Source: Ilex aquifolium (taxonomy: Eukaryota > Streptophyta > Magnoliopsida > Aquifoliales > Aquifoliaceae). Taken from it: DNA of 64,000 nucleotides. How positions within the stretch are numbered: the stretch's first letter is position 1; each line of letters begins with the position of its first letter. The stretch covers positions 24,903,635 to 24,967,634 of the forward strand of contig OX637405.1 of the NCBI GenBank assembly GCA_951799425.1. Reading direction: 5' to 3'. Below the pieces are notes generated by a model, which was not told where the DNA came from, did no database searches, and was given only the letters and a program-made list of their open reading frames with translations. The position numbers and the translations under genes are program-made. Below, one piece after another: positions 45,106-60,523 of this stretch.

Positions 45106-45518
45106 AAAAAATATTCATGTTATACAACTAGGATTTTTATATTAATTATTGGGCATTAAATCTTAATTTGATGTATTCGAGATCATTGATTGTGAAAATA
45201 GTAAAAAAAATAAAATAATTTTTTTTAAACGTGTCAAGTTTTTTATTAAACGAAAAGATAAGGTATATACAAAAATTTAAGGCAACCTTCATGTTAACTC
45301 ACTGAACTCCGATCACTTGACTCTATAGCTATCCTGCTTGGTCCTTGCTTATTCGTAATCTTTCAATGTTATCCCATTATCAAGACTCAATCATGCAGAG
45401 TAGAGCTGATTATCAGGTCAGAATTGGCTTTGGAGCCTCAGCTTTGCTCTTGTGAGTTACACCTTTTTTCATTCAATTAAAAATGACTGCAAAAAATCTC
45501 TTTTATTTTTATTGTTTC

Positions 45519-46226
45519 TGATGATACCCAGAATAAAACTGACACGTGCTCAGTAAGAGAGCTCAGCTCGGGAGCTCAGGCAAAATAAGCTGAGCTCCCC
45601 TAGCCATGAGCAGAGCTCATCCAGTCAGCACTAAGAGCTCCTAGTCGAAGGCGCGAGAGGAGAAATGCTGAGGGAACAACAAGACGACTCGGATACCCTT
45701 ATTAAGGAGGTAGAATCCAATCCGAGGCAGAAAACCCGTATTTAACCATGATCTCCTCCTAAAACTAAGGAGGATCCCACAGAAGAAGGCAAAGATCTCT
45801 CCGTTTAAAGCCAGCCATAAGGAATTTAGGTAACTCCGGAATTGTGGATGAAGATAGGGCACGATCCCTTCAATGTAGGATAGTCCCGTATTAGAGGTAA
45901 ATATGAGGCTATAAAAAGAAAGAGATATCCCCCATTAGAGGGAGATTTTTTGAAACCCTAGTTCCCTGAGTATTCGACTGTAACACCTTCAATTCATCAA
46001 TAAAGAAGAAGGAGCAAGAGCCTCCATTAGAGAGTGGACTAGCCGAGCTCACTGGCCGGTGAACCACTATACTTCCACCGTATTTCACACATTATACACG
46101 ACTAATTAGAGCTTTCATTCTCCACTTTATGAGCCTTGTAGCTCAGATGCCATATTAGTCCCCATGCAAACTGTCCACGCCAATTAATCTGGTTCCTTAG
46201 CTCGTATCCGGAGGTTTACACCATCA
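45519..46226 (+). repeat. 5' LTR
   Basis: 708 bp starting TGATGATACCC and ending CACCATCA. It contains a TATA box (45910-45916), an AATAAA signal (45999-46004), a CACGTG core at 45543-45548, and clustered AGCTC words in its first 150 bp. A 73-codon antisense frame in both LTRs is considered chance. Confidence 0.97.
45910..45916 (+). promoter_or_regulatory. LTR TATA box
   Basis: TATAAAA in CTATAAAAAGAAAGAG. Transcription would begin roughly 25-35 bp downstream, defining the U3/R boundary. The same box in the 3' LTR is at 58591-58597. Confidence 0.75.
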
Positions 46227-46229
46227 GTT

Positions 46230-46247
46230 TGGCGCCGTCTGTGGGAA
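46230..46247 (+). other. Primer-binding site
   Basis: TGGCGCCGTCTGTGGGAA begins 3 bp after the 5' LTR. The first ten bases complement the 3' end of plant tRNA-Asp as I recall it; the match weakens after that. Confidence 0.8.
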
Positions 46248-46288
46248 CGACTGTTCCTGTTACAAGTAAGCTGATTCCTCAGTGACTG

Positions 46289-49200
46289 ATGGTAATAACT
46301 CGAAATATGAGCAGAAGTCAAACAAACCTACCCCGAATGCAAGATCAGCCGGAAACTGCCCACGGCAGACAACCCGGGAACATCCAGGAGGCGAATTCCC
46401 CCATTAATAACGAGTTGGAGGCCCTTCGTCTCGTCAACCAACGCTTGCTAAAGGAAAATGAAGAGCTGTCAAAGCTCGTACAACGCCCACGGGAGGCACC
46501 ACCGGCCCAAGAAGGCCAGAGTAATCCCCCTCATAGGGAACCTCGATACTGGGACCCCCATAGAGAGGTCAGCGAGGGAGGAGAAGGCAGCCAGGCCAGG
46601 GGATATGTCCCCTACGTACCCCCTGGTAATGGCCATAACGACGAAGTGCAAAGTCGGAACGACAGGGGTGAGAGAGGTGATTTTTTCCCTTATCCGCAAG
46701 ACAGGAGAGAGCAGCACTGGGAGCAACGCTTCAAAGACTTCCAGCAAGAGCTCAGTCATATGAAAGAGGCCGTAAAGAGTAAGGCCCCGGTTACAATGGA
46801 TGTTTTGGTTCAGCAAACCGAATCCCCATTCACCACGGGGGTGCTACACTTCCCTCTCCCACCAAAGTTCAGGATGCCCCAAATGGAGGTCTTTGACGGA
46901 TCGAAAGATCCCGTGGATCATCTCAACACTTACAAGAACCAGATGGAGCTACATGGGTACCAGGATCCTGTACGCTGCAGAGCTTTTGCCATCACGCTGA
47001 AAGGCTCCGCCTTAAATTGGTTTCATAGGCTCCCACCAGCCTCGATCTCATCCTTTAAAGAACTCTCCATTGCTTTTGTCTCTCACTTTATAGGAGCCCG
47101 GATACACAGAAAGCCGAGCTACCACCTGCTGAATGTGAAGCAGGGTCCCCAGGAAAACCTGAGGACTTATGTCCAAAGATTTAACTCGGAGACATTGAAA
47201 GTAGACGTCCCGGATGAAAAATTCGCCATAACTGCTTTCATTGCAGGATTGGGAGTGCAATCAAAGGATTTGATGTTCTCCATATCAAAAAACCCTCAGG
47301 CAAGTATGGCTGAGGTGTTAGCCAAGGCAGAGAAATATATAAACAGTGAAGAGGCACTCCTTTCTAAGGTGGTCGGTACGTCTTCGCGAAAGGAAAAGGA
47401 AAAAGAAGAGAAGAGAAGGGACAGAAGCCCTAGGAAGGAAAAAGGACGAGAGAGGTCCCCAAGGAGGGACAGAGACCGCTCGCCAAAGAGGAGAGGAAAT
47501 GTCAGAGATCGGCTGGGTCCCATGCAACCTGAACTACAACCCAGATATGGGCCTCAGCGGTTTACCCCACTCACCGCTGCTGTGTCACAAGTACTGTATG
47601 AGGTCCAGAACGAGAAATTCTTAAAATGGCCACCTAGGATGAAGGCAGACCCGGCAAAGAGAGACCCCACGAAATACTGTGATTATCACCGGGATCATGG
47701 ACACCACACTGATGACTGCATTCAATTAAAGAAGGAAATCGAGTTCTTGATCCAGCGAGGTCAGCTGCGTCGTTTTATAGCCAATGATAACCAGCATCGA
47801 GCCCTTCCGCCTCCACCACCCAGGCAGCAGGCACCTGCACCACACCAGCAGCCTCTAGGGGAAATCAGAGTGATATCTGGAGGGTTCGCAGGAGGTGGAG
47901 AGTCTAGCTCAGCTCGGAAGGCGCACCTCCGACGGGTCAGAGCCGAAGAAGCTCTCGAGGTGCATGCTGTATCCAAAGCACCACGTTTGGATACAGCTAT
48001 CACTTTTTCAGATGCTGATTTAGAAGGATGCCAATACCCCCATGATGATCCATTGGTGGTACGAGCAGTGGTGGCAAATGGAACCGTTCATCGGGTTCTA
48101 ATTGATAACGGGAGCTCGGCAGATATTATTTTCGCACCTGCGTTCGACAAGATGGACATAGGAAGGCAGAAACTTGAGTCAGTAAGCACTCACTTACTGG
48201 GATTCTCCGGGGAAAGGGTGCTCCCCCTGGGTTCAATCCAGCTCGTGCTCACCTTGGGGGACCCACCTTGCCAAGCCACTACCACTGTCAAATTCCTAGT
48301 AGTCGATGCACCATCTGCGTACAACATCTTGCTTGGAAGGCCATCCTTAAATTCTATGAAGGCAATCCCATCTGCCTACCATTTAGTCGTGAAGTTCCCT
48401 ACAGAGAATGGAATCGGAGTGGTCCGAGGAGACCAGCGCGTAGCACGGGAATGCTACATGGCTTCTATGAAAGGGAAGGAGGTTGAGAACATCCAACTGG
48501 ATGAGCTCGACATGAGAGATGAAATGGAGACAAGACCAATGCCATCGGAAGAGCTGGAACCAGTTCAGCTTGATGAGAAACCAGAACACCTCGTTTATGT
48601 GGGTTCCAAACTGACCGCTGAGCTCAAAGAACTCCTCATCCAGTTCCTAAAAGAGAATATAGGAGTGTTTGCTTGGAAGCAAGAAGACATGGAGGGAATC
48701 GACCCTTCAGTTATTACCCACAAGCTATGCGTGAACCCAACTTGCAAACCCATCAAACAGAAGAGGAGGAGCTTTGCTTCTGAAAGGCAACGAGCAATAA
48801 ATGAGGAGGTCAGCAAACTCCTCCAGGCCAAGGCTATCAGGGAGGTTGATTACCCCACTTGGTTAGCAAATGTAGTTCTTGTAAAGAAAACAAATGGGAA
48901 GTGGCGATTGTGCATCGACTTCACTGATCTCAACCGAGCATGCCCCAAGGACAGTTTTCCCTTACCTCGGATTGACCTAATAGTGGATGCCACTGCAGGG
49001 CACGAGCTCCTCAGTTTCATGGACGCATTCTCAGGCTACAACCAGATCAGGATGGATCCCAGCGACCAGGAGAAGACCTCCTTTGTGACTGAACAGGGAA
49101 CATATTGTTATCAGGTCATGCCCTTCGGATTGAAGAACGCTGGAGCCACTTACCAGCGGTTAGTAAATAAAATGTTCCAGAAGCAAAGAGGAGCATCCAT

Positions 49201-51760
49201 GGAAGTTTACATTGATGACATGCTGGTGAAGTCACTAAAAGCAGAGCTCCACATCGAGCATTTAGCTGAGTCATTCCGAATTCTAAGGGAGTACAAAATG
49301 AAGTTAAACCCTGCGAAATGCGCATTTGGGGTCTCGGCAGGAAAATTTCTGGGCTTTATAGTCAACAGTAGAGGGATTGAAGCCAATCCAGAAAAGGTTA
49401 GAGCAATGATGGAAATGCAATCACCATCCAACACGAAAGAGGTGCAACGTTTGACAGGCAGGATAGCTGCACTGAGCTGTTTTGTGTCTAGGGCTAGCGA
49501 TAAATGCCAGCCATTTTTTCAAATCTTGAAGAAGGCATTCCACTGGGATGCCAAGTGTGAAGAAGCATTCGAAGACCTAAAGAGATATATGAGCTCTCCC
49601 CCTGTTCTGGTGAGCCCTCTAGAAGGGGAAATCCTCACCCTCTACCTAGCAGTTTCAGATTTTTCAACAAGTGCAGCGCTAGTTAGGGAGCGAGACAGAG
49701 CTCAGCAACCAGTCTACTACTGTAGCAGAGCTCTGAGGGGGGCAGAGGAGAGATATCCAAGGATGGAAAAACTCGTTCTAGCTCTGGTCACAACAGCTAG
49801 GAGACTTAGACCTTATTTCCAGGCTCATACTGTTGAGGTTCCAACAGATCAGCCAATGAAGCAAGTACTACACAAGCCGGAATCCTCAGGGAGGTTGGTT
49901 AAATGGGCCGTAGAGCTCAGCGAGTTTGATATCAGGTACAAGCCAAGAGCTGCCATCAAAGGGCAGATTTTGGCAGATTTTATTGCAGAATTCACAGCAG
50001 CAGCGCCTATGGAAACCACGGATTTAGTACCGGACCTTCCCATATGGAAGCTTTCAGTAGATGGAGCTGCCAATGCTCAGGGAAGCGGTGCAGGAATGAT
50101 CCTGACCTCCCCAGAAGGAATAGACGTCGAATATGCCCTCAGATTTGGGTTCAAAGCTTCAAATAATGAGGCAGAATATGAAGCCGTCATCGCTGGGCTT
50201 AATCTTGCCTATTCTATGGAAGCAGAGCAGCTGGAGATCTGCAGTGATTCTCAACTGGTGGTGAGGCAGATAGAAGAGTGTTACGAGGCAAGAGGCGAGA
50301 AGATGGTCCTGTACCTCAAAAAGGTACGAGAACTAATGAAACAGTTTGTGCAGGTTAAGGTCAGACACGTGCCTAGAGTGGAGAACTCACGAGCAGATGC
50401 TCTGGCAAGGTTAGCAACTGCCTCGCAGGAGGATTTGGATAGGCTAATTCCAGTAGAGCACCTTCCAAAACCCTCGGTAAGCATCGAAGAAGAGGAAATT
50501 CTATCAATTGAAGCTCAGCCGAGCTGGATGGATCCCATCGTAGAGTACCTTCAGAATGGAACTTTGCCAAATAATGCCAAAGAGGCATCCAAGCTAAGGG
50601 CCAGGTCAGCCAGATTTTCCCTGATGCAAGGGAAACTGTACAAGCATGAATTTTCAATGCCTCTCCTTAAGTGCGTAGGAGACGAAGATGCTAACTACAT
50701 ACTCAGAGAAGTACATGAGGGGATATGTGGCAACCACATAGGAGCTCGGGCCTTGGCAGGAAAAGTACTGAGGCAAGGATATTATTGGCCCACCATGCTC
50801 ACAAGCGCCACCGACTTAGTAAGAAAATGCAAAACTTGCCAAGAGCATGCTAATATGTCCCACTGTCCTCCCGAGCTCCTAACCTCGGTGGTAAGCCCAT
50901 GGCCTTTTCAGCAGTGGGGGTTGGACATTCTGGGACCCCTTCCCACCGGTGTGGGGCAGTGCAAGTTTGCCATCATAGGAGTGGATTACTTTACTAAATG
51001 GGCGGAGGTTGAACCTTTGGCAACGATCACAGAGCAAAAAGTTCAAAACTTCGTTTGGAAGTCGATAGTTTGCAGGTTTGGAGTTCCCAGAGCATTCGTG
51101 TCTGACAATGGAAAGCAGTTTGATAATTCAAAGTTCAAAAGTTTTTGTGCCGAGCTCGGAATCAAGAACTATTTCTCAGCTCCTGCCCATCCCCAGTCTA
51201 ATGGGCAGGCAGAGGTCACAATAAGAACCATAAAGTCAGCTTTGAAGACCAAGCTAGAAAACCTGAAAGGCAAGTGGGTGGAGTACATTCCGGAGGTGTT
51301 GTGGGCCTACAGGACCACCGCCAGATCTGCGACTCAGGAAACCCCCTTTGCTTTGGCCTTTGGGACCGAGGCAGTGGCCCCAGTGGAGATAGGGCTCCAA
51401 TCACCAAGGGTGGAGTTTGCGGATTCCGAGCACAATGATGAGTCTCTCTTGCTAAACCTCGATCTCTTGGATGAAAAGAGGGACAGAGCTCTGCACCGTG
51501 TCCGTACATACCAAAGGAAAACTGCAAGGTACTATGACAGGAGGGTAAGACACAGAAGTTTCAAGGTTGGAGATTTGGTACTTAGGAGGCTTATGCTTGC
51601 GAGAAAGGATCCCACGCATGGGAAATTGGGACCCAATTGGGAGGGGCCCTATATCGTGTCAAGGATAATCAGACCAGGGAATTACGAGTTGCAAACAGAG
51701 GAAGGAAAGGTTCTACCTCACTCGTGGAATGCCGAGCACCTTAAGAAGTTTTTTCAGTAA
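46289..51760 (+). CDS. gag-pol: Gag-Pol polyprotein, Tat lineage
   Basis: A single uninterrupted frame of 1823 aa from ATG 46289. In order: a coiled coil at about 34-70; a retrotransposon Gag domain at about 188-335; a basic Arg/Lys/Glu/Ser tract at 366-407; a zinc knuckle of CX2HX4HX4C form at 464-477; an aspartic protease with LIDNGSSA (D606) and later ILLGRPS; a reverse transcriptase with YIDDM at 974-978; a first RNase H at about 1115-1220; a second, archaeal-like RNase H at about 1253-1376 with VDGAA, NNEAEYEAV, SDSQLVV and ADALAR; and an integrase with an HHCC finger near 1475-1520, core D (LDILGP, about 1549), D (VSDNG, about 1608) and E (SNGQAE, about 1645), then a GPY/F-like end (NWEGPYIV). 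It makes the particle and copies and inserts the element. No stop or frameshift separates gag from pol. Every catalytic motif I looked for is present, so it is plausibly active. Confidence 0.97.
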   Translation: MVITRNMSRSQTNLPRMQDQPETAHGRQPGNIQEANSPINNELEALRLVNQRLLKENEELSKLVQRPREAPPAQEGQSNPPHREPRYWDPHREVSEGGEGSQARGYVPYVPPGNGHNDEVQSRNDRGERGDFFPYPQDRREQHWEQRFKDFQQELSHMKEAVKSKAPVTMDVLVQQTESPFTTGVLHFPLPPKFRMPQMEVFDGSKDPVDHLNTYKNQMELHGYQDPVRCRAFAITLKGSALNWFHRLPPASISSFKELSIAFVSHFIGARIHRKPSYHLLNVKQGPQENLRTYVQRFNSETLKVDVPDEKFAITAFIAGLGVQSKDLMFSISKNPQASMAEVLAKAEKYINSEEALLSKVVGTSSRKEKEKEEKRRDRSPRKEKGRERSPRRDRDRSPKRRGNVRDRLGPMQPELQPRYGPQRFTPLTAAVSQVLYEVQNEKFLKWPPRMKADPAKRDPTKYCDYHRDHGHHTDDCIQLKKEIEFLIQRGQLRRFIANDNQHRALPPPPPRQQAPAPHQQPLGEIRVISGGFAGGGESSSARKAHLRRVRAEEALEVHAVSKAPRLDTAITFSDADLEGCQYPHDDPLVVRAVVANGTVHRVLIDNGSSADIIFAPAFDKMDIGRQKLESVSTHLLGFSGERVLPLGSIQLVLTLGDPPCQATTTVKFLVVDAPSAYNILLGRPSLNSMKAIPSAYHLVVKFPTENGIGVVRGDQRVARECYMASMKGKEVENIQLDELDMRDEMETRPMPSEELEPVQLDEKPEHLVYVGSKLTAELKELLIQFLKENIGVFAWKQEDMEGIDPSVITHKLCVNPTCKPIKQKRRSFASERQRAINEEVSKLLQAKAIREVDYPTWLANVVLVKKTNGKWRLCIDFTDLNRACPKDSFPLPRIDLIVDATAGHELLSFMDAFSGYNQIRMDPSDQEKTSFVTEQGTYCYQVMPFGLKNAGATYQRLVNKMFQKQRGASMEVYIDDMLVKSLKAELHIEHLAESFRILREYKMKLNPAKCAFGVSAGKFLGFIVNSRGIEANPEKVRAMMEMQSPSNTKEVQRLTGRIAALSCFVSRASDKCQPFFQILKKAFHWDAKCEEAFEDLKRYMSSPPVLVSPLEGEILTLYLAVSDFSTSAALVRERDRAQQPVYYCSRALRGAEERYPRMEKLVLALVTTARRLRPYFQAHTVEVPTDQPMKQVLHKPESSGRLVKWAVELSEFDIRYKPRAAIKGQILADFIAEFTAAAPMETTDLVPDLPIWKLSVDGAANAQGSGAGMILTSPEGIDVEYALRFGFKASNNEAEYEAVIAGLNLAYSMEAEQLEICSDSQLVVRQIEECYEARGEKMVLYLKKVRELMKQFVQVKVRHVPRVENSRADALARLATASQEDLDRLIPVEHLPKPSVSIEEEEILSIEAQPSWMDPIVEYLQNGTLPNNAKEASKLRARSARFSLMQGKLYKHEFSMPLLKCVGDEDANYILREVHEGICGNHIGARALAGKVLRQGYYWPTMLTSATDLVRKCKTCQEHANMSHCPPELLTSVVSPWPFQQWGLDILGPLPTGVGQCKFAIIGVDYFTKWAEVEPLATITEQKVQNFVWKSIVCRFGVPRAFVSDNGKQFDNSKFKSFCAELGIKNYFSAPAHPQSNGQAEVTIRTIKSALKTKLENLKGKWVEYIPEVLWAYRTTARSATQETPFALAFGTEAVAPVEIGLQSPRVEFADSEHNDESLLLNLDLLDEKRDRALHRVRTYQRKTARYYDRRVRHRSFKVGDLVLRRLMLARKDPTHGKLGPNWEGPYIVSRIIRPGNYELQTEEGKVLPHSWNAEHLKKFFQ

Positions 51761-51840
51761 GTGTTACTTGTAATAGAACTACTTTTAAAAAAGAAAGAGC
51801 AAGCCTTTTATTCACCCTCCAATGGTCTCCAAAGTAGCAA

Positions 51841-52212
51841 GATGAGCTCTTCAGCTCATAAACAAACGATAAGCTTCAAAGCTTATAAATGCAAGATGAG
51901 CTCTTCAGCTCATAAACAAACGACAAGCTTCAAAGCTTATAAATGCAAGATGAGCTCTTCAGCTCATAAACAAACGATAAGCTTCAAAGCTTATAAATGC
52001 AAGATGAGCTCTTCAGCTCATAAACAAAATATAAGCTTCAAAGCTTATAAATGCAAGATGAGCTCTTCAGCTCATAAACAAACGATGAGCTCTTCAGCTC
52101 ATAAAAACACGATAAGCTTCAAAGCTTATAAAAGAAAGATGGGCTCCTCAGCTCATAACTACAGGATAAGCCTCAAAAGCTTATAAACAAAAGACGAGCT
52201 CTTCAGCTCGTA
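51841..52212 (+). repeat. 54-bp tandem repeats with twin hairpins
   Basis: Four full 54-bp units (51841-52056) followed by partial and diverged units. Each unit holds two small inverted repeats, GAGCTCTTCAGCTC and AAGCTTCAAAGCTT. The array starts about 80 bp after the gag-pol stop. The frame across it gives a repetitive Ser/Lys peptide (KMSSSAHKQTISFKAYK) but has no ATG of its own at the start, so I treat it as a structural repeat. Confidence 0.92.
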
Positions 52213-52216
52213 CAAA

Positions 52217-52333
52217 ATTCAAGGCTGAACGCTTCTTGAAGACACCAACAGTCAAATTCAAGGCTGAACGCTTCTTGGAGACACCAACAGTCAAATTCAA
52301 GGCTGAACGCTTCTTGGAGACACCAATGGTCCT
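52217..52333 (+). repeat. Three-copy 39-bp tandem repeat
   Basis: Units start at 52217, 52256 and 52295 with ATTCAAGGCTGAACGCTTCT and then GACACCAA(C/T). They follow directly on the 54-bp array. A separate two-copy block (GGTCAGAGCAGACATG at about 52433 and 52504) lies just beyond. Confidence 0.9.
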
Positions 52334-52712
52334 CCCCCCAGGACCAGATACCCTTGTGCACTGCCTACACACTCAAAGATCTCGAAAGGTCCAGAACAAC
52401 TGAGAACACCTATGAGGTCAGATGAGAAGTAAGGTCAGAGCAGACATGGTCTTCTGTTCTCCATCGATATCCGTGGTTCGACCTAGGGGGTCAGTGAAAG
52501 ACCAAGGTCAGAGCAGACATGATCTTCTGTTTTCCATCTACGTTCGTGTTTCGAACGAGAAGAGTAAGCTGAAATAACCTAACAGAATTCGAGATGAATG
52601 AAAAGTCTGGCATTCGAAATATCCGACAGTGCAAATATTCAGAAAAATACAAAAAGAGTCATAGTCTGATATCGCTTAAGAAAAGAAAGAACGATACAAG
52701 GAAACAAAGATT

Positions 52713-53801
52713 CTAGTCTTTCTTAAGTTCAGATTTCAGCTCAGCAACCTCTCCCTTCAGGCTAGCATTCTCTTTCTTCAGCTCATCCCTTTCCTGCTCA
52801 GCCTTTTGAAGCGAATTAAGGAGCTTCTGACCAACAGAGGTAAGGAAGATGGTGGACAGAGAGTCAGGAGAAGGGGAATCGTCCCTCTTACGCTTCCTCG
52901 AACTCGTGACGGTGTTTCCGTCCTTGTCAGAATCCCCATCCTCATCAGAATCAGAGAAAGAGGTCCAGGAAGAGTAAGGAATAGTGGAAAACTCAAACTC
53001 AGTAGCCTCAGCCCCAAGCAAATAGAGGTTTGCGCTCGTCATCAGCTCGGAATAAGTCTTAGACTCCACAAGCAACAACTCGTTGATATTCACCATCCCT
53101 GGTAAATCCAGGTCAGGTGGATCTGCACAGCAAGGACATAATCAGAGCATATTTTTAAAAGGAAAGTACTCAAAAGAGCTATGCTCGAGCTTACCAATAC
53201 GAGAGAAGCTCTTCCAGGACCGAGGAATCCTGGCTTTACGACAGCGATCCTCAGGAGACCTCCAAGCCTCTCCAGAAGCGAAGAAGAAACGCTCAGACCA
53301 CCCTTCAGGGTTGGAGGGAAGATCTAGAACCAGAGGGCGTAAATTGAAATCCCTCCAACGGAAGAAACTGAAGCAGGGGGCATTATCTTCCTCAATCTCA
53401 AAGAAGTATAGAAACTCAGAGACAAAGGGGAACCTGCCAAGAGCATGAAGGCGGCAGAACAAGAAGAAGCTTACCATAGCACCCCATCCTCGTGGAGAAA
53501 GGCGAGAAGGGCACAGGCCATAATAGGCAAGAACTCGCCCAATGGCCGGATGAATGGGAAGGCGAAGTCCCATGTCTATAGCACCTTCAAAGAAACAGAC
53601 TTCCCCTCGGGGAAGGTAGTTACAAGGCTCGTCGGAGGAAGAAACTCGCATAGGCAAGTCAAGATCAGGGAAAAACCGTTTCTTGATGTCCGTCAAATCA
53701 GAAGATTCAAGTAATGAAGGGGACAAATAGCGACAATGCCACTCCCATTCGATCCCAAAGGAGGATCGTTCCTGGAACAAAGAAGAAGTGGATGCGGCCA
53801 T
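52713..53801 (-). CDS. Antisense gene B: gypsy-type-transposon-domain protein, 338 aa
   Basis: Model: complement(join(52713..53122, 53195..53801)). The 72-bp intron has a GTAAGC donor and a TGTGCAG acceptor, phase 1, and the frame continues to a stop. The start is the first ATG (MAASTSSLFQ). Residues about 66-185 resemble the plant 'Transposase (putative), gypsy type' domain (PF04195 as I recall), with VCFFEGAIDMGLRLPIHP, YYGLCPSRLSPRGWGAMV and IPRSW. Exon 2 has KTYSELMTSANLYLLG, then a Ser/Asp-acidic stretch, a basic RKRKRDD (possible nuclear signal) and a C-terminal coiled coil (about 290-338). It is the shorter paralogue of gene A and lacks A's long tail. Upstream lie a pyrimidine-rich leader and a TATA-like TTTATTAATTA. 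Function unknown. The domain name is inherited and does not show transposase activity: I see no catalytic triad. Confidence 0.82.
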
Positions 53802-53928
53802 CGAAAATGCTGGTAAGGAAAAAGATGCAAGAAATCAAGAAGAAAGTCAAGAATAGGTCATGCACTTGAGAGCTTTTCAGGAAACTAAGAGCCAAGAAAG
53901 AGGGAATCAAGTGGCCTGTTCAGTTTCT

Positions 53929-53939
53929 TAATTAATAAA
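53929..53939 (-). promoter_or_regulatory. Candidate TATA element of antisense gene B
   Basis: CTTTATTAATTAA on the minus strand, about 130 bp before gene B's ATG and followed by a pyrimidine-rich leader. Position and composition are the only evidence. Confidence 0.35.
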
Positions 53940-53947
53940 GGTAGCAG

Positions 53948-54030
53948 CGGTTATGGAAAGTGGCTACGGTTATGGAAAGTGGTTGCGGTTATGGAAAGGG
54001 GAAAGACGTGGCGGTTATGGGAAGCGGTTG
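53948..54030. repeat. 19-bp direct repeats upstream of gene B
   Basis: CGGTTATGG recurs at 53948, 53967, 53986 and 54012; the first three are exactly 19 bp apart within GCGGTTATGGAAAGTGG-type units. The cluster lies 150-230 bp upstream of gene B on its own strand, where regulatory repeats could sit. Confidence 0.8.
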
Positions 54031-54921
54031 AGAGAAAAACGCGGGAAAAGAAACCAGATACTACCCCTCCTATTTGCACTCAAAACGACCAACGAAAATT
54101 CTGACCCCACCAAGCAATATACCCTCCATATTTGAGCTCAGCCCAGTAAAAAACAGAGCACTTGTATACCAAATCTTTGAGGTGTGAAAGCTCAAAGCCT
54201 CGCTTAAGGAAGGCCTAAAGCACTCCGCAAAGCAAGATGTGGGGAAAAGAGAGGTGAAACGTAGAAGAAGGTCCTCTACTCTTAGAGAAATGGAGCAACG
54301 AAATTTATTATCTGATCTAGAGAAGGGTTCGTTTAAAGAATCACGAAGCTCAGAAATAAACTTTAAGATCAGACAACAGAGCCAAATAGCTCAGAAAGCG
54401 CTCTTCAGTTCATACGGAAAAGACAAAGAGCTCAGAGCTCTCAAGTTCGAAAAAAGAGCCGTCTTAGCTCAGCAAGAATTTATAAGCTCACAAGCACGAG
54501 CTATGCAACTCTGAAGGAGCACGCCAGTTCAGAATATAGAGTTGAGCAGCTTAGGACGAAGAAGAATAAGGAGTGGACCCCTAGGGTACCAACTACCGAG
54601 CTTAAAAGGCTCGGGAAAAGCAGTCGAACATAACACCAAGTCCCCTGTACTCTTCAAACCTAGTAATTTTGCTTCAAGAAGTGCACAGCACCCCTCAAAG
54701 CAAAAGGGGGCAAAGGGAGTATACAAAGTTGAGTGCATGCAAAGCCAGGCAAATAAGTGCACCGTTGCGGTTCGAGTCGAAGTCGAATCAAAATCCAAGA
54801 ATACATATATGCTGAAATTGAAAGATATGTATATATATACTAAGCCAGCAAAAGAGCAATAAATGAAGTCAAAGACTACATCACGAAAAATTCTTTACAG
54901 AGAAATTACAACTAAAAAGAC
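54031..54921. other. Spacer between antisense genes A and B
   Basis: Non-coding DNA within the retrotransposon, rich in AGCTC words (for example around 54340-54500). The plus-strand frames at 54239-54514 and 54542-54862 have no domain and are not supported. Confidence 0.6.
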
Positions 54922-57550
54922 CTAGGATTCTGGAAAAAGAGGGATTGAAGGATCTCGCAGCTCAGTAGAGGAGTCCCTTGCTTCTGTTGCTGAGGGCTCA
55001 CCTTGAACAAGGGCTTCAGACACCACGACAGCTGAAAAGGATGCAGAAACAGGCACAGCAGGAGCTGCAGCAGAAAGCTCAGGAATCGTTGTTGAAGGCT
55101 CAGGGAGCGCGATAATAGCTTCTGAGGTCCCAGGGGCGGGTGTGTCTTGACTTATGGCAGCAGCTGGGGAGTCTGAGATATCCCCCTCATTGTCAGTGCC
55201 AGATTCTTCCATTTCCTCCTCAGTGGGGATGGGGAGATTGAAATCAAGGTCTGGATATGCTTTGGTAGCCTTACGCCTAAAAGCAAGCCATCCAGTAGCC
55301 CATGAAGTGGTGGCCTCATCCTTAAGCTCGACAAACTCTTTGTCTCTCTCTTGAACCAAATATTTCTGCTCCTCGAGCTCCTCACAGAGTTTGCCGTTAG
55401 CCTCACTGAGGGCAAAATAATCTTGATTAACCTGGATGAGCTCCCTCTTAGCGTCAAAGGCCTCCTGGTTAGCCTTGGACCACGCCTCAACCTTAGCCTG
55501 CAGGTCTTCCTTAACCGCCTTCAGCTCATCCCGAGTCTTCTTTTCCCCTTCCTCAGCTCTGGCCTTGACTGTCAGTGTATGTTTGAGATCGGAGGCTTGC
55601 TTCACCATCTGTTCGTTGAGACCCTCCATCTGCACTTTAAGGCTCTCCACCTGAGCTCTGAGGTCTTCATTCTCAAGAGACAATTCTGAAACCTTGGTCT
55701 TGTATTTCTTTAAGACCTGGAAAGAGCTCTCTTGAGAGCGAACTCGGTGCAGCAGACCTTTCGTATGAAGGGCAGCCTGAGAATATAAGGAAAGTACAGC
55801 AAATAATGTCAGACCACGAAATACAAACAAGCAAAGAGAGACAGGGGGTTAACACTCACAGTAGCAGCTCCCTGAAGGGCCAAAGAGATGGATTCCTCCA
55901 GGGGCATGGAAGCGGCCTTCAGGACATCAGATTCAGAAAAGATAGAGGAAAGAGCTCCAGCAGCAAGGTCTATATTGTCAAAAAAGGAGTCCTCATCTTC
56001 CTCCTCAGACTTTCTCTCTTTTTCAGTCACCTTCCCAGAAGCACTGTATTCGAACTTCCCGGGTTGAAGGTCGGGAACCAATTCCAAAGCCTCCTTGACC
56101 TCAGAAGAAGAAGGGGAAGCCTGATCCCTCTCCTGAGCAGACGCCAACTTAGAAGGGGCCACTGGAGGGGAAGAAGAGGTGGTTGCAGCCTGTGGAGTTC
56201 CAGAGGAGGAGGGCGGAGCCTTGCTTGGAACCTGTCCTTCAGCTGCAGAGGGGGGAGAAGATGCTTCCAGCCTGGGGATCTTAGCTCGAATGTTTGGGCC
56301 GCTCCTAGAGCCTACCCGAGCTTTGTGTTTCCTAGACCTGCCACCCACCATCAGCTCTGCAATTTTGGCCTGAAGCTCTTCTGGATCAACCTTCATGGTA
56401 GAAGGACCTGGAAGATCTGGAAGAAGTAGGAAAATGTAAAGAAAAAGAGAAAGGAAGGAAAGATAATGAAGAAAGGAAAAAGAATGGCGTTGAAATCACC
56501 TTCGTCAGCCCCTAAAACAGACAAGGGGATCGCTAAAGTCGCCACAGGAAGACTCAGACCTAGCTGTACCAGGTTCCTTGACTCAATCAAGTCGGCGTAC
56601 TTCTCTGGCTTGATCTTCTCCAACTTTGCTAGCAACTTTTTGTCCTCAGGGCTGAGCTCGTAGCGTTCACCTAAGAGGAAGAAAGTATGCAAATAAGAAA
56701 AGATAAGAGGCCGGCAGGTTCCAGATCAGAGCTCGAACTCAAGTAAGGACTCACGTAAATTATCTGGTTCAGCCCAGGCCGTAGGGATACCGAGTGTGTC
56801 TGTCTTATCAGCAGGGTTGTACTCCCAATTAGTGCCCCCGACAAAGAAGAAATGTTCCTTCCAGTGTTTATGGGAGGTCGGAATGTCAGAGATGAACTGC
56901 CTAACACTGGCACGCTTGGAGGCATACAAGAAGCCTCCGGAGGTCGGTTTTACATTGAAGAGCTCTAAGAACAAAGGAATGCTAGGAATCCCAAGTTTAT
57001 GCTTCTTAAACAGGACTAACAGACCAACCATGACGCCATAGAAGTTGGGGGAGATCTGGGAAGGGCACACATGAAAATGTTGCAGAACAGCCTTGATGAA
57101 GGGATGCAAGGGAAAGCGAAGGCCGTTGTCAAAAGCAGCAAGAAAGAAGCAGACTCTGTTATGAACTTTTTCTACATAAAAAACGGATCGATCTGGGCAC
57201 CAGGGTTCGACCCCAGGGGGAAAACCATACCGAACTTTATAAGACTTCATTAGCCTAGGGGCCTCTTTACTGCAGCCCACAGATTCGGCATGCCTAAAGG
57301 CAAACCCTAGATACGAGGTTTTTTCCTCCACCCTGACTCCACTTATCTTAGCTTTGCCTTTGTCAGGTCTGGGGGGCAGGGAAGATGAGGTGGAGGGAGG
57401 CTCCTCGGCGTAGACCTCAGCCTCTACAGCCTCTACACCCGGAAAATTATCAATCTCATCACCAACTTCCCCTAAATCCGTATCTTCCCCGGCTGACCTA
57501 GATCCTAGAAGTGAAACAGAGGAGCGAGTGGCTTCAGAAGAAGCAGACAT
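54922..57550 (-). CDS. Antisense gene A: spliced gypsy-type-transposon-domain protein, 792 aa
   Basis: Model: complement(join(54922..55776, 55860..56416, 56500..56670, 56755..57550)). The three introns are 83, 83 and 84 bp, all GT-AG; phases agree and the 2379-nt chain has no stop until its end. Residues 132-235 carry the core shared with gene B: VCFFLAAFDNGLRFPLHP, HVCPSQISPNFYGVMV and IPTAW. Exon 2 continues KPEKYADLIESRNLVQLGL. Exon 3 has a basic GGRSRKHKARV (possible nuclear signal) and Ser/Pro/Ala-rich filler. Exon 4 is a long coiled coil (about 520-650), then an acidic and Pro/Ala/Thr-rich tail. The family is common in plant genomes as retrotransposon-borne frames. No catalytic motif is visible, so a DNA-binding, scaffold or anti-silencing role is only speculation. 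The frame stays open upstream to 57877, so a longer N-terminus is possible, but MSASSEATRS is the likelier start. Confidence 0.85.
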
Positions 57551-58025
57551 GATAGGGAGAGAAAAAGGAAGATGGAAAGAGCGATAGAGCAAAGGGGGAT
57601 TAGTCAGGCACTCTCTAATGACCCGGGAATCAACACAGTGGCTCCCAACAGCAAGGATATGAACTACAGAACCCCAATCCACGAAGTGGTGAAGTGGGGC
57701 TAGACAATGGTCACGATTCCAAAAATAAAAGAACCGAAAAGCCCAAAAATGCAATAACCACCTCGAACTCGAGGGATCCAGAGCAAAAAAGGAAGAAATA
57801 AGGGCAAAGGACGTACCTAACCCAGGGATAGTGGCAAACAGGAACTTGGAACGAAATCGGAAAAGGAGGCGTCGCAAGTCTTCGAAACGAGGTCCGGAAA
57901 TTCGATTTCAGGCAAGAGAATAGAAAAACCAAGGCAAGAAGGACTGGAATCACAGAGAGAGCGGAGACGAAGGGCAGTAAAGAAGATGAATAGTGCGAAG
58001 AAGCAGTTTAGATAGCCGTTTTAAG

Positions 58026-58119
58026 CATTTAAAGCCTGGGAGACATGGGCTGAGACGTGCGCGGGAATCGAGGAAAGTCATGATGGCTATAAAACCGTCA
58101 GAAATCCTCCAGCCACGTG
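58026..58119 (-). promoter_or_regulatory. Candidate promoter of antisense gene A
   Basis: On the minus strand a G-box (GGCACGTGGC, core 58114-58119) is followed by a TTTTATAG element and a CTTTAAATG element (58026-58034), then a pyrimidine-rich stretch down to about 57950. This order resembles plant core promoters. The leader to the ATG would be about 450 nt. Confidence 0.4.
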
Positions 58120-58187
58120 CCAGCCACACGCACGTCTAACTCGTCTTGTACAAGTCATCCCCTGCCTGAGCTAACTCAAGGCAAGGG

Positions 58188-58199
58188 CTGGGGGGCAAC
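58188..58199 (+). other. Polypurine tract
   Basis: A G-rich stretch, CTGGGGGGCAAC, lies directly before the 3' LTR: the expected position of the plus-strand primer for reverse transcription. Confidence 0.7.
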
Positions 58200-58907
58200 T
58201 GATGATACCCAGAATAAAACTGGCACGTGCTCAGTAAGAGAGCTCAGCTCGGGAGCTCAGGCAAAATAAGCTGAGCTCCCCTAGCCATGAGCAGAGCTCA
58301 TCCAGTCAGCACTAAGAGCTCCTAGTCGAAGGCGCGAGAGGAGAAATGCTGAGGGAACAACAAGACGACTCGGATACCCTTATTAAGGAGGTAGAATCCA
58401 ATCCGAGGCAGAAAACCCGTATTTAACCATGATCTCCTCCTAAAACTAAGGAGGATCCCACAGAAGAAGGCAAAGATCTCTCCGTTTAAAGCCAGCCATA
58501 AGGAATTTAGGTAACTCTGGAATTGTGGATGAAGATAGGGCACGATCCCTTCAATGTAGGATAGTCCCGTATTAGAGGTAAATATGAGACTATAAAAAGA
58601 AAGAGATATCCCCCATTAGAGGGAGATTTTTTGAAACCCTAGTTCCCTGAGTATTCGACTATAACACCTTCAATTCATCAATAAAGAAGAAGGAGCAAGA
58701 GCCTCCATTAGAGAGTGGACTAGCCGAGCTCACTGGCCGGTGAACCACTATACTTCCACCGTATTTCACACATTATACACGACTAATTAGAGCTTTCATT
58801 CTCCACTTTATGAGCCTTGTAGCTCAGATGCCATATTAGTCCCCATGCAAACTGTCCACGCCAATTAATCTGGTTCCTTAGCTCGTATCCGGAGGTTTAC
58901 ACCATCA
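58200..58907 (+). repeat. 3' LTR
   Basis: 708 bp, identical to the 5' LTR except at 58223, 58518, 58589 and 58661. TATA is at 58591-58597 and AATAAA at 58680-58685. It is followed by the TSD GTTTC. Confidence 0.97.
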
Positions 58908-59184
58908 GTTTCAATTTATTTTATTATATCAATAATCAATGGCTGCGATTAATTCAGAGAAAATCAATGGTCAATAATAATTTTTCGATATTGTAATAAA
59001 AATTTGTTATCCCTGGACCCAAAAATGCAAACAAAGAGTAACTATATATTTTTTTCCACAATGAACCAACAAACAAGCCTTGCCCAACAGTCTATCCACG
59101 TACCAACTGACGTGCACAAACCACTTAGAACTCTAAAGAAATAAACTTGGCTGTATTGAATATTTTTTTTTTGATATTGTAAAA

Positions 59185-59464: not shown

Positions 59465-59851
59465 GGCTGTGTTTGGTTTGCGTCTGCAAAACTGTTTTTT
59501 GTTCTCAAAATTTTAAAAACACTCAAATCCTGTTTGTTTAGCATTTTTGTTCTCAAAATTTTCGGAAAAAATGAGATTTGAGTCAAAGAAACAGAAAACA
59601 AGTCTATCTTGTTTTCGGAGTTTTCTTGGAAAATTTTGAAAACAAGGAGAACAATTTTGGACTTTAATGAGGTATGCTCTTCGAGTCTCCTTAGCAGCAA
59701 ATTTCTTCATTCCTTTTTTTTTTTACTTCTTCCTCTCTCTCCTAATATATAATATATATATATAATAGATATTATAATATAATATATAAATATTATATTA
59801 TATAATATTATTAAAATTCGTATATATATTTATTTATTTATTTATAAATTC

Positions 59852-59884
<33 letters not shown>

Positions 59885-59996
59885 AATTTATATGTATAAA
59901 TATATATATTATATAATATAATATAATATATAAATATTATATTATATAATATTATTAAAATTCGTATATATATATATTTATTTATTTATAAATTCG

Positions 59997-60071
<75 letters not shown>

Positions 60072-60114
60072 TGGTATATATATGTATATATTTATCTACG
60101 AATTTATATATACG

Positions 60115-60154
<40 letters not shown>

Positions 60155-60523
60155 TTATATGTATAAATATATGTATAAATATATATATTATATATTAAAT
60201 TGGTATATATATTTATACATATATATGTATAAATATATAATAGAATATAATATATATAAATATTATATAATATATAAATATAATATTATATTATAATATA
60301 TAAATAACTTTCTTATATTTTTTTATTAATGTTTGAAATACTGTTCAAACATATATTTAGGCTGTCCAAACAGGTTTTACTATTTCTATTCTGTAAAACT
60401 GTTTTTGAAATCATCTAACCAAACAAATTTTTTATCTCAAAAAATATCAAAACCATTTTCTCAAAACTCTTCTCAAAAACTGTTTTCGGATACCTGTTTT
60501 TGAAACACAAACCAAACAGGCCC
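59465..60523. mobile_element. TIR MITE enclosing a long AT tract
   Basis: Ends GGCTGTGTTTGGTTTG and the complement of AAACCAAACAGGCCC are inverted repeats. CAA flanks both sides (59462-59464 and 60524-60526), a 3-bp TSD as in PIF/Harbinger. The subterminal parts are inverted copies (TTGTTCTCAAAATTTT type). The middle is the AT tract at 59742-60305. Confidence 0.6.
59742..60305. repeat. Long AT-dinucleotide tract with inner duplications
   Basis: About 560 bp of TA repeats interrupted by recurring AAATTCGTATATATAT and TTATATTATATAATATTATT segments, including a two-copy direct duplication of roughly 180 bp. It is strongly self-complementary. Confidence 0.9.

Follow-up and report, generated by a model that had tools for sequence, protein, structure and literature searches.

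Two antisense gene chains in a Retand-type retrotransposon

We analyzed a 64,000-nt stretch of the Ilex aquifolium genome (the window, in which all coordinates are given) and searched an 800-Mb assembly of 103 contigs for its relatives. The window carries an intact Retand-type Ty3/gypsy long terminal repeat (LTR) retrotransposon at 45519–58907, with ends TG...CA. Between pol and the 3′ LTR of this element lie two chains of minus-strand frames, which the original prediction had interpreted as spliced, paralogous genes. Both chains are present exactly as claimed. The four exons of the long gene, when joined, encode an AUG-started protein of 792 aa, and the two exons of the short gene encode 338 aa. 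The introns have GT–AG borders and keep the frame, with lengths of 84, 83 and 83 nt in the long gene and 72 nt in the short one.

52713..53122, minus strand: short gene exon 2 including stop; ratio of nonsynonymous to synonymous substitution rates (dN/dS) of 0.15 in the frame of the exon
53123..53194, minus strand: short gene intron, 72 nt, GT–AG, phase 1; GT–AG in 44/44 other copies and in 9/9 rows of the divergent set
53195..53801, minus strand: short gene exon 1; TRP28 domain at 53394–53600
54922..55776, minus strand: long gene exon 4 including stop; coiled coil, weak SMC match
55777..55859, minus strand: long gene intron 3, 83 nt; GT–AG in 18/19 copies and 11/11 rows
55860..56416, minus strand: long gene exon 3; open spliced frame, included in the dN/dS comparison
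56417..56499, minus strand: long gene intron 2, 83 nt; GT–AG in 19/19 copies, AG in 11/11 rows
56500..56670, minus strand: long gene exon 2; open spliced frame
56671..56754, minus strand: long gene intron 1, 84 nt, phase 1; GT–AG in 19/19 copies and 11/11 rows
56755..57550, minus strand: long gene exon 1 from the first ATG; TRP28 domain at 56948–57154

The two proteins are related, as had been proposed. They match each other with 31% identity across 179 aa (E 2e-27), and a Pfam scan placed both above the curated cut-off of Transposase_28 (PF04195, TRP28), with E-values of 8.7e-9 for the long and 9.1e-10 for the short protein and bit scores for the two chains of 35.9 and 39.1 against a cut-off of 26.2. 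The gene structures agree as well: exon 1 measures 796 nt in the long gene and 607 nt in the short gene, and in both the next intron is in phase 1 and follows soon after the shared IPxxW end, again as predicted.

Beyond TRP28 the long protein continues with a linker and then a coiled coil, and its exon 4 gives a weak SMC-like match (E 0.0036). The short protein has an acidic stretch, a basic KRKR cluster recognized by eye, and C-terminal zipper-like heptads with only sub-threshold matches, the best leucine-zipper match being HALZ (E 0.069). A search of a large protein collection, in which plant proteins are probably scarce, found no relative of the short protein at E ≤ 0.001 among 1362 candidates.

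Coding constraint and splice sites in other copies

We compared the window with a close-copy set of 20 loci, comprising 8 copies of subfamily A (~98% identical to the window) and 12 of subfamily B (~80–82% over the long gene and LTR). Between-subfamily dN/dS was estimated for the window against 9 subfamily-B copies, with L042, L045 and L048 excluded as interrupted or partial. It was 0.15 for the spliced frame of the long gene, measured to position 55200, and 0.17 for that of the short gene. The remaining frames gave 0.78–3.22, except for the opposite-strand frame that shares third positions (0.20 for the long gene and 0.28 for the short gene).

The splice sites are kept as well. Across 44 distinct copies of the short gene, counted after removal of the window itself (L001) and five duplicates, GT–AG borders are present in every case, the intron ranges from 71 to 93 nt, and the spliced frame is intact in 36. 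For the long gene, all 19 fetched copies have GT–AG borders at introns 1 and 2, and 18 of these 19 have them at intron 3; in the stretch fetched for L045 there is no long gene. Intactness of the long frame was judged on the 8 subfamily-A copies, the B rows being incomplete in that alignment, and seven of these are intact, L033 having a stop. Separately, the intron 3 donor of L038 reads GC instead of GT, and its spliced frame is still open.

We also considered whether the 72-nt short intron is mere coding sequence where it is open. This was rejected, since elsewhere its length shifts by non-multiples of three and the length of exon 1 is constant.

To the close copies we added eight further loci picked from a genome search with PF04195 (from the best 150 of 5,837 first-look candidates). 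A search of relatives for one or two copies had been suggested, and its answer is mixed: five loci have both genes (L052–L056), two have the long gene only, and L057 has a single TRP28 gene next to a pol that is just 44–57% identical. In the divergent set, the GT–AG borders of long introns 1 and 3 are unchanged in position in all 11 rows. At long intron 2 the AG is present in all 11 rows; the GT keeps its position in 6 rows, and in 4 rows of the more distant group (L053, L055, L056 and L058) it lies 6 nt farther along. All 9 rows examined for the short gene retain its intron, each with a short exon 1 of 607 nt. Compared with the window, the introns of the more distant group drop to 38–55% identity with the splice sites kept; in a small control, 5 of 20 other GT or AG dinucleotides within these introns were invariant. 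Because rows of one group are related, the splice-site counts are not independent. L046, L054 and L056 have both proteins open over the full length, or nearly so.

Could chance open frames and chance GT–AG pairs in a repetitive region account for these chains? Open frames antisense to coding sequence do arise by chance, and the short gene is broken in eight copies. However, most of the region has no long sense frame, both chains have Pfam matches and are under selection, and splice sites persist while the introns around them diverge. We consider chance virtually out of the question; it is refuted by the spliced-frame dN/dS together with the conserved splice sites. Because of these same two lines of evidence, low dN/dS in the spliced frames and splice sites kept in divergent loci, both antisense frames are, at the level of sequence comparison, confirmed as real genes under purifying selection in their spliced frames.

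An N-terminal extension of the long gene

The exons of the long gene stand as originally given, but its protein probably starts earlier than 57550, at a CTG at 57781.

57551..57781, minus strand: conserved N-terminal extension of 77 codons; probable CUG start at 57781–57779

The extension was tested on 28 pairs among 8 of the 14 rows aligned (L053 stops short of the CTG). Its dN/dS is 0.10 (0.06 in the first half, 0.14 in the second), compared with 0.25 for the opposite-strand frame sharing third positions and 0.97–2.07 for the remaining four frames. Variable columns at the three codon positions number 21/9/36 of 64 in the extension versus 21/19/22 of 50 in the 150 nt upstream of the CTG; the latter figures mean that no codon pattern is present there. 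The CTG stands in a good context: each of the 13 rows extending that far shows a purine at −3 and G at +4. Moreover, AUGs are depleted on both sides: summed over 12 related, non-independent rows, 1 was observed against 19.8 expected between a TATA-like box (described below) and the CTG, and 0 against 31.8 between the CTG and the ATG. The simplest reading that these data suggest is initiation at the CUG at 57781 followed by leaky scanning to the AUG at 57550, and the long gene would probably make two forms, a CUG-initiated protein of ~869 aa and an AUG-initiated one of 792 aa.

Alternatively, the extension might be translated from a spliced-in upstream exon with its own AUG. A conserved splice-site-like GTTAGGTACGT located 30 nt upstream of the CTG speaks for such an exon. 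Against it, the leader is nearly AUG-free, constraint starts at or near the CTG, and the subfamilies differ by one base in length between GTTAGGTACGT and the CTG, so that GTTAGGTACGT does not lie in a shared frame. We therefore judge an upstream AUG exon unlikely, and CUG initiation is retained below. As an observation in its own right, conservation of the GTTAGGTACGT element (57811–57821) between subfamilies could point to an alternative first intron.

Candidate promoters

Upstream of each gene we found a candidate promoter within the element.

53927..54020, minus strand: probable short-gene promoter; four CCATAACCG boxes and an AT-rich TTTATTAATTAAG box
58025..58035, minus strand: TATA-like GCTTTAAATGC, possible long-gene promoter; GCTTTAAA in 12/12 rows

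All 9 rows have boxes of the form CATAACCG upstream of the short gene, varying in number (the window has four CCATAACCG), and a recognizable AT-rich TTTATTAATTAAG-like box. The TATA-like box of the long gene sits 165 bp inside the element from the 3′ LTR. When the upstream regions of the two genes were compared, no promoter homology was detected. Each antisense gene probably has its own promoter within the element, judging from these conserved boxes, and the candidate internal promoters agree with the promoter of its own reported for gene23 of the maize element Grande in a review (PMC7264820).

Age of intron 1 and origin of the pair

A tree of TRP28 domains, from which the unrecovered long core of L049 is missing, separates a short clade (support 99), a single-gene clade (100) and a long clade set apart from the other two (100), all about equally far apart. 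Two loci fetched as possible outgroups, L059 and L060, proved to be long-type. In the single-gene family all three loci (L057, L061 and L062) have a phase-1 intron after a VPxGW end, with borders G/GTAAGC...GCAG/ATCC (slashes mark the exon–intron boundaries); the donor of L062 is the variant GTATGC, and L057 has a stop in the exon following intron 1. Since intron 1 has the same place and phase in three TRP28 clades, it would be older than their split. The downstream coiled-coil exon of L057 gave no BLAST match to long exon 4, so we claim only intron 1 and TRP28 as common.

The two genes travel together. We compared the best 88 of 144 long-gene matches (all at least 95% identical) with the 150 short-gene matches listed: at least 83 of these 88 closest long-gene matches have a short-gene match downstream on the same strand, at a median distance of 3,749 bp. 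The remaining five may not lack a short gene, given that the count is among the matches listed.

The pair had been attributed to an internal duplication. This is not established: the long, short and single-gene clades are about equally deep, and because they are equidistant the tree cannot separate a duplication within the lineage from a gene taken from another lineage. Acquisition of the second TRP28 gene from another Retand lineage by recombination, with both proteins real, is a serious contender that we hold to be just short of probable. In addition to the equal distances, it is favored by the single-gene protein of L057, whose similarity to the short protein (33.5%, E 6e-21) is no lower than that to the long protein (28%, E 1e-13), and by the swapping of blocks between subfamilies. 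On the other side, the pair stands side by side on one strand, as expected of tandem duplication, and no donor lineage was identified among the loci compared.

Block exchange itself is evident from the alignments. In subfamily B a block from ~54182 (54001 in L046, L047, L049 and L050) to ~52643 is 91–95% identical to the window, with flanks of 79–83% on the long-gene side and ~73–86% on the pol side. Synonymous divergence (dS) between the window and subfamily B is 0.13 for the short gene and 0.67 for the long gene. By this sequence comparison, the subfamilies have exchanged a block that holds the short gene and the greater part of its promoter, with template switching as the presumed mechanism. 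Two loci are mosaics. L049 has a subfamily-B-like long gene, is 94–98% identical to the window at ~54001–52123, and its pol side stays high (98.5%). L054 is 93–94% identical to the window from long exon 3 to intron 3, 82% in exon 1 and 75–77% in the short-gene exons.

Another long-gene family, with 88% identity and an open frame of 365 aa, has many equal-scoring matches among those listed, five of them on contig C12 at 22.56–22.62 Mb. On this pattern of matches, the family would represent a second recent burst.

The element carrying the genes

The original prediction also placed both genes inside one intact retrotransposon. LTRs, target duplication and an open gag-pol are indeed all present. 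The two LTRs, 708 bp each, differ at 4 positions, and a 5-bp target duplication, GTTTC, flanks both sides of the element.

45519..46226, plus strand: 5′ LTR, 708 bp, preceded by target duplication GTTTC at 45514–45518
46230..46249, plus strand: putative primer binding site TGGCGCCGTCTGTGGGAACG, just 3′ of the 5′ LTR
46289..51760, plus strand: gag-pol in a single open frame, with gag, reverse transcriptase (RT), RNase H, a second RNase H-like domain and integrase
51837..52326, no strand: tandem arrays of 54/27-bp and 39-bp units, between pol and the short antisense gene
58200..58907, plus strand: 3′ LTR, 708 bp, followed by target duplication GTTTC at 58908–58912

At a plant substitution rate of 1.3e-8 per site per year, the 4 LTR differences would date the insertion to ~0.2 million years ago.

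The domain order in the pol piece is RT 28–188, RNase H 249–376, RVT_3/RNase_H 420–539, H2C2 632–683 and rve 702–798. Thus an extra RNase H-like domain lies between RNase H and integrase, as is characteristic of Retand within Tat; this trait is common also to Ogre (PMC6317226). The region from pol to the 3′ LTR measures 6,439 bp, within the published Retand range of 2,933–6,566 bp, and its antisense Transposase_28 frames, another Retand feature, are supplied here by two genes. Domain order, a large pol–3′ LTR region, tandem arrays and antisense TRP28 frames are all Retand features, as far as these are described in PMC6317226 and PMC11963269. By its sequence, then, the element is a recently active Ty3/gypsy retrotransposon of the Retand lineage (Tat clade).

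Comparison with known systems

Antisense TRP28 open reading frames (ORFs) have been called characteristic of Retand elements, and a DNA-binding, regulatory role has been suggested for these ORFs (Vicient 2025, PMC11963269); antisense PF04195 ORFs were reported in all but two of 63 Retand clusters (PMC11963269). The present element resembles those published ones in its large pol–3′ LTR region, a region that often holds tandem arrays, and in its antisense PF04195 ORFs (PMC11963269). It differs from the Retand ORFs described in the text of that paper in having a pair of intron-bearing TRP28 genes and a probable non-AUG extension. In that text, figures aside, the word 'intron' occurs 0 times and two TRP28 genes per element are not mentioned. 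Since the coiled coil encoded by long exon 4 weakly matches SMC (E 0.0036), the separate antisense 'Smc' and similar ORFs of Retand elements may be downstream exons of TRP28 genes.

Grande gene23 of maize is likewise an antisense ORF between pol and the 3′ LTR, with its own promoter and a nuclear product (review PMC7264820). The passages on gene23 in this review do not mention a two-gene arrangement, whereas here there are two genes. In layout, the nearest analogy may be HBZ of human T-cell leukemia virus type 1 (HTLV-1), an antisense spliced accessory gene for one isoform of which a non-AUG start has been discussed as possible (PMC1459196). The analogy is one of layout only; splicing of the present genes is inferred from conservation. 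Moreover, HBZ transcripts start in the 3′ LTR (PMC1459196), whereas the promoters proposed here lie inside the element and there are two genes. We found no homology to HBZ, and a basic leucine zipper was not recognized in the short protein (HALZ, sub-threshold).

According to a 2025 review, introns are generally missing from plant LTR retrotransposons, Ogre and EVADE being notable exceptions (PMC12786077). The functional introns of Ogre and EVADE are on the sense strand (PMC6317226, PMC12786077); those described here are on the other strand, unseen by splicing of genomic RNA.

Titles and abstract openings of a largely open literature contained neither spliced antisense TRP28 genes nor a non-AUG start in them. 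Antisense TRP28 ORFs in Retand elements are already published, while splicing, pairing and the CUG start were not found in the searchable papers. Beyond the original prediction, what is new is the N-terminal extension with its probable CUG start, the block exchange between subfamilies and the long-only relatives.

Proposed function of the antisense genes

Taken as a whole, the data are likely best explained by a Retand element with two spliced, separately promoted antisense TRP28 accessory genes, the long one with two forms. Each gene would be transcribed from its internal promoter towards pol as a nuclear pre-mRNA, and splicing would remove three introns from the long transcript and one from the short, giving TRP28-domain proteins. 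In the nucleus, these proteins might be trans-acting accessory factors for the element's expression or integration, with its own DNA or RNA as their target. The long protein could oligomerize through its coiled coil, and the short one could share its partners through TRP28 and its own zipper-like end. The originally suggested pairing of a full-length form with a competitor might also apply, if the long and short proteins interact. The antisense position would let the genes keep their introns and would keep their expression separate from that of gag-pol, because the reverse-transcribed genomic RNA cannot splice antisense introns out. The claim that genomic RNA safely carries such introns fits what we see: they are intact in a recently moved element, as expected. 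Their retention through many rounds of retrotransposition also implies that the antisense mRNA is not the RNA that is copied. Comparison among loci shows the exon structure with its splice sites, the purifying selection that acts on the two proteins as well as on the extension, the co-occurrence of the pair and the block exchange.

Several observations weigh against this explanation. Eight of the 44 short-gene copies are broken, and some copies have a short intron that can be read through in frame (open frames of ~373 aa), so that its retention could also give protein there. Four loci have a broken long frame (L049, L051, L055 and L058) and two an early stop in it (L053 and L040); L052 and L055 have a broken short frame, and the donor of intron 2 is lost in L051. 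In L033, an 8-bp duplication between the CTG and the ATG breaks the reading frame that joins the extension to the AUG. At L051 and L058 the long gene is present, with pol adjoining it, and the short gene is absent, which suggests that the short gene is dispensable in some elements. AlphaFold2 models of the window's two exon-1 proteins were too poor for use (mean predicted local distance difference test score, pLDDT, 37.1), and comparison with solved structures gave no convincing relative (best E 0.13). The original prediction had named stops or broken splice sites in relatives as evidence that would count against it. Most such damage is absent, the short-gene splice sites being intact in all 44 copies, but the eight broken spliced frames stand on the other side. 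Separately from these points, pol of L051 and L058 is split over several frames.

Another possibility is that the antisense transcript itself is functional, through double-stranded RNA (dsRNA) or other RNA-level control, with the frames incidental or secondary. Antisense transcripts of LTR retrotransposons can indeed yield dsRNA and small interfering RNAs (PMC7264820). However, selection acts at the codon level (spliced-frame dN/dS 0.10–0.17), and the introns keep the frame, which RNA function alone would not explain. We regard a purely RNA-level role as decidedly improbable and return to two protein-coding genes.

If these are spliced genes, annotation based on open frames overlooks much of each protein, and single-exon or AUG-only constructs would test the wrong protein. 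The long-only loci and the exchange of the short-gene block may serve as natural experiments on the role of the second gene. A broader proposal, on which we are evenly divided, is that Retand elements harbor an ancient system of intron-bearing antisense genes: intron 1 would predate the TRP28 clades, many of the separate antisense ORFs reported in Retand elements would be exons of spliced genes, and the present lineage would have two separately promoted genes, one with CUG and AUG forms. The non-genomic strand would then be a protected, splicing-dependent place for regulatory genes.

Around the element, an Rfam scan of the window at gathering thresholds returned zero matches, and a long self-complementary repeat array lies at 59743–60250, immediately 3′ of the element.

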